A DNA stretch of 33,030 nt from Bacillota bacterium. GTDB lineage: Bacteria; Bacillota; Dethiobacteria; DTU022. The number at the start of each line of letters is the position of its first letter. Within the stretch, counting starts at the first letter, position 1. The DNA is taken from the NCBI GenBank assembly GCA_012800855.1, contig JAAZIN010000163.1, forward strand, positions 1 to 33,030, written 5' to 3'. Position numbers and translations under genes: made by a program. Below, piece after piece: positions 12,692-17,519 of the stretch. The notes under the pieces were generated by a model. It saw nothing but the letters and a program-made list of their open reading frames with translations, did not search any database and was not told where the DNA came from.

Positions 12692-14842
12692 TTGGAAACA
12701 TTTTCCCTTGAACTGGAAGGCAGAACCCTGAAGCTTGAAACAGGGCGCCTGGCCAAGCAGGCGGGCGGTGCCGTTTTGATCAGCTACGGCGACACAGTCC
12801 TTCTGGTTACGGCAACCATGTCCGACGAACCCCGCGAAGGGGTTGATTTTTTTCCGCTGACCGTGGATTACGAGGAGAGACTTTACGCCGTGGGGCGTAT
12901 TCCGGGAGGCTTCATTAAGCGGGAAGGCCGGCCCACGGAGAAGGCCATCCTCAGCGCCCGGCTCACCGACCGCCCCCTGAGGCCGCTTTTCCCGGAAGAG
13001 CTGCGCAACTCCGTCCACATCGTTTCCACCGTTCTCTCCGTGGACCAGAACTGTCCCCCGGAGATACTTTCCATCATTGGCGCTTCGGCGGCGCTATCCA
13101 TATCCCACATTCCCTTTGCCGGGCCCGTGGGGGCGGTGATAATGGGCCTGGTAGACGAGAAGCCGGTGGTCAACCCCAACCTGGAGCAGTCCATGCAGAG
13201 CAAGCTCCACCTGGTCGTTGCCGGCACCAAGGATGCCATCATCATGGTGGAGGCCGGGGCCCGCGAGGTCAGCCGCGAGGACCTGCTGGCCTGCATTGAA
13301 GCCGCCCGGGAACCCATCAGGCAGATCATCGAGCTGCAGGAGGAGATGATCGCCAGGGTGGGCCGGCCCAAGATAGAGGTGCCCATGTTCGAGCCGCTGC
13401 CGGAGCTTGCCGCCGAGCTGGAGCCCTTTTTGCTCCAGCGCATCGACCAGGCCCTGCGCACTGCCGACAAGCAGGAGCGCGAAGAGAAGCTGGCGGCGGT
13501 AAAAGAGGAGGCCATGGTTCAATTCCTGGAGAAGTATCCGGAGCAGGAGCGCGACATCAAGTATGTCTACGAAAAAGTGCTGAAGAGCTCCCTGCGCCGG
13601 ATGATCCTGGAGGAATCCTTGCGCCCCGACGGGCGCAGGCCTGATGAGATCCGCCCCATCAGCTGCGAGGTCTCCGTCTTGCCGCGCACGCACGGCTCGG
13701 CCCTCTTCACGCGGGGGCAGACCCAGGTGCTCAACGTCTGCACCCTGGGCGCGCCGCGCGACGTCCAGATTCTCGACGGCCTCGGCATCGAGGAGTTCAA
13801 GCGCTTCATGCACCATTACAACTTCCCGCCGTACAGCGTGGGCGAAGCCGGCTTCATGCGCGGCCCCGGGCGGCGCGAAATCGGACACGGCGCCCTGGCG
13901 GAGAGAGCCCTGGAATGCGTCATTCCCAGCGAGGAGGAGTTCCCCTACACCATCCGCCTCGTCTCGGAGGTCCTGGAGTCCAACGGCTCCACCTCCATGG
14001 CCAGCGTCTGCGCCGGCTCCATGTCGCTCATGGATGCCGGGATCCCCGTGTCCAAGGCCGTGGCCGGCATCGCCATGGGCCTGATCAAGGAGGAGGACAA
14101 GGTGGTCATCCTCTCCGACATCCAGGGCATCGAGGATTTCCTCGGCGACATGGACTTCAAGGTGGCCGGCACGGCGGAGGGGATCACCGCCCTGCAGATG
14201 GACATCAAAACCAGGGGCATATCGCTGGAAATTATATCCAAGGCCCTGGAGCAGGCCATCAGCGGCTACAGGTATATCCTGGGGATCATGAACGAGGTCA
14301 TCGATCGGCCGCGGCCCGAGCTGTCGCCCTATGCCCCGCGCATGATTACCATGCATATCGACGTGGATAAGATCCGCGATGTCATCGGCCCGGGCGGGCG
14401 CGTGATCAACAAGATCACTGCCGAGACGGGGACGGAGATAAACATCGAGTCTGATGGTAGGGTTTATATCCTCTCCGTGGATCTGGCCGCTGCCCAGAAG
14501 GCCCAGAAGATGATTGAAGCCCTTGTTGCCGACGTGGAGCCAGGACAGGTCTACACGGGCCGGGTGACGCGGGTGGAAAAATACGGCGCCTTCGTGGAGG
14601 TGCTACCAGGCAAGGAGGGGCTGCTCCACATCTCGCGCATGGATCACCGCCGCGTGGCCCGCACCGAGGACGTGGTCAACCTGGGCGATGAGATCGAGGT
14701 TAAAGTGATGGACATAGATGAAAAGGGAAGAATCAATCTGACCCGCAAGGATCTGCTGCCCAAGCCGCCTGAACCGGCGCCGCGCAGCAGGCCCAAGGGG
14801 AGGCGAAACCGCTCCCCGCAGCGTTCCAAACAAAAACCCTAG
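12692..14842 (+). CDS. pnp: Polyribonucleotide nucleotidyltransferase (PNPase)
   Basis: This phosphorolytic 3'-5' exoribonuclease works in mRNA decay. Two RNase PH domains flank an alpha-helical linker: the first begins [21 protein letters not shown] and the second is marked by [35 protein letters not shown]. Active-site DMDFKVAGT and the [20 protein letters not shown] motif are present. KH (about [15 protein letters not shown]) and S1 ([27 protein letters not shown]) domains follow, then a short basic tail. The 716 residues are typical. The start is TTG at 12692, ten bases after AAGGAGGT (12674-12681). Confidence 0.97.
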
Positions 14843-14858
14843 CCAATAGGGTTTTTTT
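14832..14858 (+). terminator. Intrinsic terminator of rpsO-pnp
   Basis: AACCCTA (14835-14841) pairs with TAGGGTT (14847-14853) around a five-base loop, followed by an uninterrupted T-run to 14858. The 5' arm contains the first two bases of the pnp TAG stop codon, so coding sequence and terminator overlap. Confidence 0.85.
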
Positions 14859-14939
14859 AATGCCCGCATAAGCCTCCAGGCGGGGGCATAAAAATTTAAG
14901 GGATCAATTCACCGATAACACGCGGATGGGGTCGCAGAG

Positions 14940-15647
14940 ATGTTTCCCTCCTGGCGCCGGGCTGAAATAGTGGGGCTCTGCTTGATGGCCATCCTGGGCG
15001 TGCTGCTGCTGGCCAGCGCCCTGCGGCAGGCCTCGCCGGCCCCGCCCGCGGCGGTCTACTTTGCCCCGGGCAGCCCGGCACGGGTAGCCCTCACCTTTGA
15101 GACCTTCTGGAGCAGCGAGGGCCTGGATGAACTCCTGGCCATACTGCGAAAGGAAGGTGTGCGGGCTACCTTCTTTCTCACCGGGGCCTGGCTGAAAAGG
15201 TATCCCCGAGCGGCCAGGGCCATTCTGGAGCAGGGGCACGAAATTGGCAACCATACCATGAACCATGCCAACCTGCTCTACCTCTCCGAAGAAGAGATGA
15301 GGCGGGAGATAGACGGCTTCATCGAAGCGGCGCAGGAGATCCTGGAATACCGCCCCGTGCTGTTCCGGCCGCCGCAGGGGCTTTACAATGGCCTTGTCCT
15401 CGAGCATGCCTGGCGCAGGCGCTGCCGGACAGTGCTCTGGTCGGTGGAATCATACGACTACATCAGCCGGGATGCGGCCGAAGTGGTGGAGCGCATTGCC
15501 GGCAGGCTTCACGGCGGGGCGATCATTCTCTTCCGCTCCGGCTCCCCCCTGGCGCGCCAGGCGCTGCCCCAGGTCCTGGAGCTGCTGCGCCGGCGGGGAT
15601 ATAGCGCGGTAACCGTCTCGGAGCTGCTGGAAGAAGCCGGCCTTTAA
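14940..15647 (+). CDS. Membrane-anchored NodB-fold (polysaccharide deacetylase-like) protein with altered active site
   Basis: An N-terminal hydrophobic segment (about residues 10-28) probably anchors the protein outside the membrane. The rest is a NodB homology domain (about residues 47-235). Seen: the zinc-binding pair H105 and H109 in NHTMNH and the RPPQG motif (143-147) are kept. However, the motif usually written TFDDGP reads LTFETF (51-56), losing the Asp pair, the DxWDW region is SVESYDY, and the final L-H motif is ILFRSG. Active deacetylases of this family need the first Asp and last His, so it may be inactive or act differently. It lies between the pnp terminator and ylxY. The ATG has only a weak site. 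Confidence 0.8.
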   Translation: MFPSWRRAEIVGLCLMAILGVLLLASALRQASPAPPAAVYFAPGSPARVALTFETFWSSEGLDELLAILRKEGVRATFFLTGAWLKRYPRAARAILEQGHEIGNHTMNHANLLYLSEEEMRREIDGFIEAAQEILEYRPVLFRPPQGLYNGLVLEHAWRRRCRTVLWSVESYDYISRDAAEVVERIAGRLHGGAIILFRSGSPLARQALPQVLELLRRRGYSAVTVSELLEEAGL

Positions 15648-15678: not shown

Positions 15679-16677
15679 ATGGCGGGAAGGGCAGGTCGAG
15701 GGTGGTGGAGATGGGGCGCCGCCGTCCTCCTCATTGCCGCGGCGGTGGCGCTGTTCTATTTTAAATACGACGAGCCGCTGCGGCGCCTGTTCAAGGGTGT
15801 AAAGGCGGGGGTGACGCTGCAGGGGGAGCCGTTGGAGCGCCTCTTCCGCCACGAGGTGGAGGCCATCATCGCCCGCATGGCCAAGCAGCAGGGGCGGGAG
15901 CCGGTCAATGCTATGATCGACCCCATTTACGAGCGGATCATCCCCGAGCTTAACGGCCTGGAAATAGACTGCGAGGCCACCCTGGAGCTGGTCATGAAGG
16001 CGCCGGCGGGGGCAAAGCTGATGCCGGTCTACCGAGAGCTGCTGCCCCAGGTGCGCTGGGAGCAGTACCCGGCGCTGCCGGCGGCGCAGGGCAACCCGCG
16101 CAAGCCCTGTGTTTCGCTGATGATCAACGTGGCCTGGGGCGAAGAGGAGCTTCCCGAGATGCTCCGGGTGCTGCAGGAAGAAGGGGCGCGCGCCACCTTC
16201 TTCCTCACGGGGCGCTGGGCCGAGAAAAACGAGGCCCTGGTCCGGCAGATCGCCGCCGCCGGGCATGAGCTGGGGAACCATGGCTACTCCGACGACGAGG
16301 TTTTTCCCGAACTCGATGCCCAGGGCATGGCCCGATCGCTGCGCCGGACAAACGAGATTATCTTCGCCACCACGGGTTCCTACCCGTGCTACTTTACCCC
16401 CCATAAGGGAGAATACGACAAGCTCACCCTGGAGGTGGTCTCCCGCCAGGGGATGCGCACCCTGCTCTGGAGCCTCGATACCGTGGACTGGAAGAAGCCC
16501 GGGGTAGAGGAGATGCGCGAAAAGATCAAGCATAACCTGGCCCCGGGGCAGATTATCCTCATGCATCCCACGGCCGACACCGTGCAGCTGCTGCGCGAAA
16601 TCCTGCCCTGGATCAGGGAGCAGGGGCTTGCCGTGGTCAGCGCCGCAGAGCTGCTCGATCCCAGTTGGCCGCGATGA
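15679..16677 (+). CDS. ylxY: YlxY-type sporulation protein, degenerate NodB domain with an N-terminal accessory domain
   Basis: YlxY-like proteins follow pnp in many spore-formers and are restricted to endospore formers; their role is not established. After an N-terminal membrane helix (about residues 13-28) comes an 85-residue domain (41-125), then a NodB fold (142-332). The hallmark PCVSLMINVAWGEEELPEML replaces the catalytic TFDDG motif. The second zinc His is missing (NHGYSDD, 200-206), RPP is FTPHKG, while DTVDW (267-271) and ILMHP (293-297) remain. A non-catalytic or altered role is likely. The ATG at 15679 is chosen just before the membrane helix; GTG at 15652 is an alternative. The 41-125 domain recurs in the next gene. 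The stop overlaps that gene's ATG. Confidence 0.85.
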   Translation: MAGRAGRGWWRWGAAVLLIAAAVALFYFKYDEPLRRLFKGVKAGVTLQGEPLERLFRHEVEAIIARMAKQQGREPVNAMIDPIYERIIPELNGLEIDCEATLELVMKAPAGAKLMPVYRELLPQVRWEQYPALPAAQGNPRKPCVSLMINVAWGEEELPEMLRVLQEEGARATFFLTGRWAEKNEALVRQIAAAGHELGNHGYSDDEVFPELDAQGMARSLRRTNEIIFATTGSYPCYFTPHKGEYDKLTLEVVSRQGMRTLLWSLDTVDWKKPGVEEMREKIKHNLAPGQIILMHPTADTVQLLREILPWIREQGLAVVSAAELLDPSWPR

Positions 16678-17519
16678 GAGAGGGGAGGAGCCTGTTGCGG
16701 CAGGGGCGAAGGTATGGGGCAGTGCTTTTGCTCTGCAGCCTGGGCCTCTTCTGCCTGGGGGTGGCGGGCTGCCTGCTTTTTGCCCCCCTTGGCGGCCGCG
16801 TCCGCCGCGGCGTAGAGCTGGAGGGCATTCCCGTGGAAGGGCTCACGCGCCGCGAAGTGGCCGCCCTCGTGGAGGAGCTGGCGGCGGCCATAGATGAGCC
16901 GCCGCGAAATGCCTTTATCGACCCCCGCAGCGGCGAGGTGGTAGCTGAAGTCATCGGCCGGCAGGTGGACCGCCCAGCCACGGTGGAGAAAGTCATGAAC
17001 GCCCCTGCCGGCAGCAAGGTGCTGGCGGTGGTGATTGCCCTTGATCCCGAAATTACGGCGGCTCACTTTGCGGCCATCGACCGCGAAATCGGCGCTTTTC
17101 GCACCTGGATCGGGGGAGGCGGCGGGAGGGCCGTCAATATCATGCTGGCCACCGCTTCCTTGAACAACTACCTGCTCCTGCCGGGAGAGATCTTCTCCTT
17201 CAACGCGGCCAACGGCCCGCGCACGGCGGAGCGGGGCTACCGGCCGGCCCCGGTGATCGTGGGCCACACGGTGGTTCCCGGCCTGGGCGGGGGTGTCTGC
17301 CAGGTTTCGACCACCCTCTACAACGCCGTGCTGCGGGCTGGGCTGGAGGTGGTGGAGCGCTACCCTCACAGCCAGCCGGTAGGCTACGTCCCCCCAGGGA
17401 TGGACGCCACCGTGGCCGACACCCTGGATTTTAAATTTCGCAACAGCAGCGATCGCCTCATCATGATCCGCAGTTCCAACTGGGGCGGCAGCATCGATAT
17501 CCGCATCTGGCAGGACTGA
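16674..17519 (+). CDS. VanW-domain protein with N-terminal peptidoglycan-binding-like domain
   Basis: VanW-family proteins are exported or membrane-anchored envelope proteins of unknown biochemical function, first seen in vancomycin-resistance clusters. An N-terminal hydrophobic segment (about residues 15-37) is followed by a domain at 43-127 nearly collinear with residues 41-125 of the upstream YlxY. The VanW domain (about 155-270) is complete: LLPGEIFSFN, GPRTAERGY, GGGVCQVSTTLYNAVLRAGLE, RYPHSQPVGYVPPGMDATV, and DFKFRNSSD. ATG at 16674 overlaps the YlxY stop (ATGA); TTG at 16695 has a better-spaced site (GGGAGGAG) and is an alternative. Here it is a sporulation-region gene, with no van ligase nearby. 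Confidence 0.9.
   Translation: MREGRSLLRQGRRYGAVLLLCSLGLFCLGVAGCLLFAPLGGRVRRGVELEGIPVEGLTRREVAALVEELAAAIDEPPRNAFIDPRSGEVVAEVIGRQVDRPATVEKVMNAPAGSKVLAVVIALDPEITAAHFAAIDREIGAFRTWIGGGGGRAVNIMLATASLNNYLLLPGEIFSFNAANGPRTAERGYRPAPVIVGHTVVPGLGGGVCQVSTTLYNAVLRAGLEVVERYPHSQPVGYVPPGMDATVADTLDFKFRNSSDRLIMIRSSNWGGSIDIRIWQD

Follow-up and report, generated by a model that had tools for sequence, protein, structure and literature searches.

Two adjacent genes in a 33,030-nucleotide stretch of a Bacillota genome (GCA_012800855.1, contig JAAZIN010000163.1; lineage Bacillota, Dethiobacteria, DTU022), hereafter called the window, encode an orthologue of SwsB/YlxY and a short VanW protein whose N-terminal regions are homologous. 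We propose, with a probability of roughly 55%, that the two proteins are a cortex-maturation pair, a cyclase and an LD-transpeptidase, each displayed on a module resembling PG_binding_4. What is new here is a short, SwsB-linked and sporulation-bound VanW subfamily, together with a family identity for the N-terminal domain of SwsB.

The features considered are collected in Table 1. The gene order is rpsO – pnp – NodB – swsB – vanW – dut – ymxH – dpaA – dpaB – dapA, a locus common to SwsB genes across Bacillota, and the four-base overlap of swsB and vanW reported in the initial annotation is indeed present, as a shared ATGA at 16674–16677.

A terminator-like hairpin stands between pnp and the NodB–SwsB–VanW cluster, and a sigma-E-like candidate site lies 45 bases upstream of the first gene of the cluster. 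The pattern GHATA-N16-CATA is matched only at this site in the whole 33 kb (0.15 matches expected by chance; p = 0.025 against shuffled intergenic sequence). Similar sites were found at p < 0.05 in 10 of 45 equivalent pnp-to-cluster gaps, the Bacillus-like locus among these 45 (L157) having none. As consensus matches, such sites lend weak support to a possible control of the cluster by sporulation.

Table 1. Features of the pnp–vanW region (positions in the window).
Feature	Position	Strand	Basis or remark
Terminator-like hairpin with T-run, 3' of pnp	14832..14859	+	aaaaaccctA gccaa Tagggttttttt; direct sequence reading
Sigma-E-like promoter candidate	14866..14894	+	GCATAAG - 14 bases - CATAAAAA; consensus match only
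NodB (CE4) protein P0003, PdaB-like	14940..15647	+	Sequence and profile comparison
SwsB/YlxY orthologue P0001, 332 aa, with a single membrane segment at the N-terminus	15679..16677	+	TIGR02873
Hydrophobic membrane segment / signal anchor of SwsB, residues about 12–28	15712..15762	+	Sequence
Shared N-terminal domain of SwsB, residues about 36–128, compact, PG_binding_4-like	15784..16062	+	
NodB-fold domain of SwsB	16090..16659	+	
Short VanW protein P0002, 281 aa	16674..17519	+	Membrane segment; VAGC up to Cys33 as possible lipobox
Shared N-terminal domain of VanW, residues about 38–130	16785..17063	+	PG_binding_4 over curated cut-off
VanW catalytic domain	17127..17510	+	PF04294, 163 bits

The shared N-terminal domain

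The initial annotation had aligned residues 41–125 of YlxY (15799–16053) with residues 43–127 of the VanW protein (16800–17054), without a gap and with 35 identities in 85 positions. These coordinates are exact and our recount agrees, adding 52 positives and a BLOSUM62 score of +161; 20,000 shuffles of one partner gave 6.9 ± 2.5 identities on average, with a maximum of 19 and a best score of +19. By BLASTP, the two proteins share 45 identities in 130 positions (E = 6e-14), and the common block is wider than had been noted (approximate limits in Table 1).

When a profile of 68 SwsB N-domains (A1) was compared by hhalign with a profile of 40 VanW N-domains (A2), we obtained a probability of 99.9% and a score of 174.6 over 99 aligned columns. 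The highest score among forty column-shuffled controls was 18.1, and no unrelated domain (VanW catalytic, NodB) exceeded 16.2. The relation extends far beyond the window pair, given that a set of SwsB taken only from outside the order and from loci with no observed adjacent VanW still yielded 99.9% and a score of 167. Chance similarity is ruled out by the shuffles and the profile controls, and we regard the homology of the two regions as secure. The earlier picture of one exported domain attached to two different catalytic domains is thus upheld, both by hhalign and by the matching models described below.

PG_binding_4 (PF12229) is matched by the two profiles as well, over its C-terminal half, with 97% hhalign probability (scores 62 for SwsB-N and 61 for VanW-N). 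In single-sequence Pfam searches, PF12229 was matched by 58 of the 68 SwsB domains and 29 of the 40 VanW domains, and almost no other family was matched. The VanW copy of the window passes the gathering score of 22.1 (24.0 bits when the full protein is searched and 26.3 with the domain alone), over half the length of the family only; the SwsB copy, at 15.6 bits, falls short of it, and the SwsB copies of five genomes (G025, G056, G009, G020 and G001) pass. The first half of PG_binding_4 is missing here, and a short GVxLxGxxxxG strand segment takes its place. Judged from these comparisons, the N-domain is a compact module related to PG_binding_4 through the C-terminal half of that family. A single shared exported module, as first proposed, therefore stands, except that it is not new in kind and belongs with the PG_binding_4 domains of VanW and YkuD LD-transpeptidases.

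In a search of 150 genomes with the VanW-N profile, the matches above 40 bits were, wherever checked, SwsB or short VanW, and ordinary PG_binding_4 proteins reached about 36 bits or less, implying that SwsB-N and VanW-N resemble one another more than either resembles ordinary PG_binding_4. Long frames of 447, 918 and 450 aa, in three genomes, were considered as a third architecture and proved to be SwsB within high-GC open frames; a further match, in G082, has 336 aa, the length of SwsB.

AlphaFold2 models of the two domains (mean pLDDT 93.4 for SwsB-N and 89.3 for VanW-N) agree in the succession of their helices and strands and in their best PDB match, rather than showing different folds. For both models, Foldseek placed the three BA3943 entries on top (probability 1.00 and 0.92–0.98), with moderate TM-scores of 0.40–0.51 and an rmsd near 4.8 Å. 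Against PDB sequences, the VanW-N profile gave three significant matches, all to the BA3943 N-domain (E about 5e-4), and the SwsB-N profile retrieved the same entries at E = 5e-14, a match that also identifies the extra N-terminal domain of SwsB in the window protein. A single-sequence search with VanW found no solved relative. Ldtfm (1zat, 2hkl, 6fj1), whose pedestal domain might have been expected to be a relative, was reached by the PG_binding_4 profile at E of about 0.5 only and was absent among the listed fold matches, and we claim no relation. Peptidoglycan binding by PG_binding_4 is itself described as putative in Pfam, and we would give even odds that the shared domain binds glycan.

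The SwsB orthologue and the upstream NodB protein

Against TIGR02873, the window SwsB scores 223.6 bits (2.7e-66) and misses the curated cut-off of 391.5. Only 2 of 200 genomes of the phylum reach that value, suggesting that the cut-off is tuned to Bacillus. The catalytic Asp is replaced by Asn150 (16126–16128, motif LMINVAWG), as is typical of SwsB. The metal ligand His201 (16279–16281) is present, the second metal His has become Asp205 (16291–16293) and the Arg has become Thr240 (16396–16398), with the general-acid His296 (16564–16566) intact; Asn150, Thr240 and His296 together conform to the cyclase pattern.

We sampled 114 SwsB proteins from Bacillota, which were called by Asn in place of the catalytic Asp and hence have this Asn by definition. 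All 114 retain the general-acid His and none has the Arg of PdaA. The N-domain is missing from 46 of them, and the second metal-ligand His is intact in all these 46; among the 68 proteins with the N-domain this ligand is Asp in 39 (the window protein included) and Ala in one. A lost metal ligand next to an intact general acid fits a metal-independent cyclisation.

In 2025, SwsB of B. subtilis was reported to be a muramic-δ-lactam cyclase, with a residue pattern that goes with cyclase activity, no deacetylase activity and no requirement for a transition metal; without its N-domain, the activity was weakened and not abolished (PMC12444981). The NodB domain of the window protein had been called degenerate in the initial annotation. 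The substitutions are real, but inactivity does not follow from them, as the same changes define the cyclase SwsB. By analogy with its characterised relatives, the window protein is very probably a muramic-δ-lactam cyclase. For SwsB in general the N-domain is dispensable, as many SwsB proteins of Clostridia do without it.

The protein encoded upstream (P0003) looks catalytically altered as well, judging from its residues. Its catalytic Asp is replaced by Glu54 and its general-acid His by Arg199, with the metal ligands H105 and H109 intact, so that it departs from the PdaB/PdaA deacetylases at both catalytic positions; against the PdaB profile it scores 158 bits (cut-off 237). In related genera the metal ligands of this protein decay too, and in other Bacillota the same gene has all catalytic residues intact. 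CwlD-like and PdaA-like genes are found elsewhere in the window genome, both below the curated cut-offs.

In two other genomes the upstream deacetylase is fused to SwsB, a single frame running from an apparently active deacetylase through the N-domain to the cyclase (L158:3483–5240, minus strand, 586 codons; L176:3366–5285, plus strand, 640 codons). These fusions tie deacetylation to cyclisation, two consecutive steps.

The short VanW protein and sporulation

The window VanW has the expected catalytic residues, Cys209 (17298–17300, GGGVCQV) and His232 (17367–17369, RYPHS). Across the short-VanW set the Cys is invariant (40/40), and the His is found in all 39 sequences that reach its position. 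A hydrophobic segment and the half-length PF12229 match (26.3 bits) provide a membrane anchor and a PG4-type domain. Lipobox-like motifs, LTGC or VSGC, occur in several VanW relatives and VAGC in the window protein, which would be anchored by its membrane segment, possibly with lipid attachment.

A 2024 study of C. difficile identified VanW domains as LD-transpeptidases built around a Cys-His-small triad and accompanied by PG4 domains, some VanW proteins being devoid of this activity (PMC12729407). Going by these relatives, the window VanW is probably an LD-transpeptidase. It was also considered as a glycopeptide-resistance protein and rejected, as it scores 57 bits where NF033128 requires 365; no resistance genes lie close to it, and with the VanW of VanB/VanG clusters it has only the VanW domain in common.

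A second, longer VanW with a full-length PG_binding_4 is encoded on another contig of the same genome (G000:C150:706–1545). Within the order, this longer kind is not tied to sporulation.

Among 71 genomes of the order, SwsB and the short VanW are present in an identical set of 32, and their genes are adjacent in 30. SpoIVA is found in 28 genomes, all of them inside these 32, and the other 39 are without SpoIVA, SwsB and short VanW (Fisher p = 8e-16 for the co-occurrence, ignoring relatedness). The losses are spread over several separate genera and families, and the four genomes with the pair and without SpoIVA are incomplete assemblies (66–93%). The longer VanW persists in several genomes devoid of all three (G239, G244, G254, G263 and G264), meaning that the link to sporulation is specific to the short form. 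This co-occurrence, and the position of the locus between pnp and dut-ymxH-dpaA-dpaB, agree with the sporulation link that the initial annotation had put forward.

Outside the order, 80 loci were sampled in other families, and 9 of them have a short VanW close to SwsB (no more than 1.9 kb away in L110); the arrangement recurs in 3 more loci separate from this sample, and in 8 named contigs, Thermosyntropha and Syntrophomonadaceae included, where VanW precedes SwsB. Most SwsB loci of other families have no adjoining VanW, and the short VanW is unlinked in 5 of the 21 cases of the profile-match survey and in genus g170. The order pnp – vanW – swsB was seen in L108, L150, L217–L220 and L301–L303; here SwsB has no N-domain, and the domain is on VanW only.

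Proposed role, alternatives and known relatives

According to our proposal, the two genes would encode a membrane-tethered, sporulation-specific pair that finishes the peptidoglycan of the spore cortex. Each protein would consist of an N-terminal membrane anchor (possibly a lipid in VanW), one compact PG_binding_4-type domain and then the enzyme. SwsB would turn deacetylated muramic acid into muramic-δ-lactam and VanW would process those stem peptides that remain, its most likely activity being that of an LD-transpeptidase forming 3-3 cross-links. The space between the forespore membranes would be the site of action, where the shared domain would keep both enzymes on one nascent glycan.

A common cortex site for the two proteins, or peptidoglycan binding by the domain, is plausible, and it is slightly more likely than not that the cortex is what VanW acts on. 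In C. difficile the cortex has 3-3 cross-links only, and these persist without its three YkuD enzymes (PMC11986978), which makes a VanW enzyme a natural candidate there. VanW is a recently recognised second class of LD-transpeptidases, and its short subfamily, given its linkage, shared domain and co-occurrence with SpoIVA, is a candidate for the 3-3 cross-linking enzyme of the cortex in clostridia. These observations point to the short VanW as a hitherto overlooked partner that cross-links the spore cortex during its assembly. Lactam formation by SwsB is itself recent knowledge, and the paper describing it mentions the extra N-terminal domain, leaving it without a family and not identifying it as PG_binding_4-like (PMC12444981). 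In the literature searched, of incomplete coverage, we found no paper that links VanW to SwsB or to any defined sporulation locus.

A more specific version of the proposal is tentative. It would have VanW be a dedicated cortex LD-transpeptidase or LD-carboxypeptidase, and the N-domains a specialised cortex-glycan module, apart from ordinary PG_binding_4, coupling lactam formation and stem-peptide processing.

The N-domain might instead be a protein–protein docking module, its SwsB and VanW copies pairing mutually or with a common cortex-assembly scaffold, in which case glycan binding would be irrelevant. The same domain on neighbouring proteins could heterodimerise, and the restriction of its SwsB-type form to SwsB and short VanW, wherever checked in the 150 genomes, would fit a dedicated pair, as would the adjacency of these genes in many lineages. 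However, at several loci (L127, L150, L159, L162, L217–L220) a domain-bearing VanW adjoins a SwsB that has no such domain, and in many lineages SwsB carries the domain where there is no short VanW, so that each copy can do without its counterpart. PG_binding_4, the related domain, moreover sits on single LD-transpeptidases, and we consider docking unlikely.

Slightly less probable still is a vegetative or general cell-wall role for VanW, whose gene would then share no more than a conserved operon with swsB, and the domain would be a plain anchor or spacer that has no specific ligand. VanW proteins do work in vegetative growth of C. difficile (PMC12729407), the window genome has its second, longer VanW elsewhere, and rpsO, pnp, dut and dapA are housekeeping neighbours. 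Such a role is hard to reconcile with the presence of the short VanW in all SpoIVA-positive genomes of the order and in none without SwsB, when the longer VanW persists in several SpoIVA-less genomes. A terminator after pnp and the sigma-E-like candidate site ahead of the cluster also speak against it, and VanW-N scores 175 with SwsB-N, which makes it a far nearer relative than ordinary PG_binding_4, with a score of 61.

As to the age of the shared domain, a phylogeny of 108 N-domains, a check suggested in the initial annotation, split them by gene (SwsB versus VanW) and not by genome, with 4 changes of gene label against 32 for shuffled labels. The window SwsB copy clusters with SwsB of related genera and the VanW copy with VanW (starred branches). 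A recent local duplication or gene conversion inside the operon, which the adjacency of the genes and the 35–41% identity of the domain could have indicated, is ruled out by this tree, in which the two window copies are not sisters, and by the profile match with SwsB from VanW-less loci. The exchange of the domain between SwsB and VanW, in one direction or the other, is an old one by this tree, which is unrooted and built on a short domain.

The cortex-maturation pair that we favour can be compared with known systems on both sides. The window SwsB has the domain order of SwsB/YlxY of B. subtilis and BA3943 of B. anthracis (PDB 6HM9, 6HPA, 7BKF; TIGR02873; IPR014228), namely membrane segment, N-domain and NodB fold, and the BA3943 N-domain is the best PDB match in both sequence and fold. 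These Bacillus proteins likewise have Asn for Asp, a lost Arg, the general-acid His and a gene following rpsO-pnp. Unlike them, the window protein has Asp as its second metal ligand and Thr at the Arg position, scores below the TIGR02873 cut-off, and has a vanW gene next downstream.

On the VanW side, LdtCd4 and LdtCd5 of Clostridioides difficile, redundantly essential in growth, are also attached to the membrane and have a PG4-type domain ahead of a VanW domain in which the catalytic Cys and His are present (PMC12729407). The window VanW differs from both in its length of 281 aa, in having a compact SwsB-type N-domain and not a full PG_binding_4, and in its linkage to swsB and sporulation.
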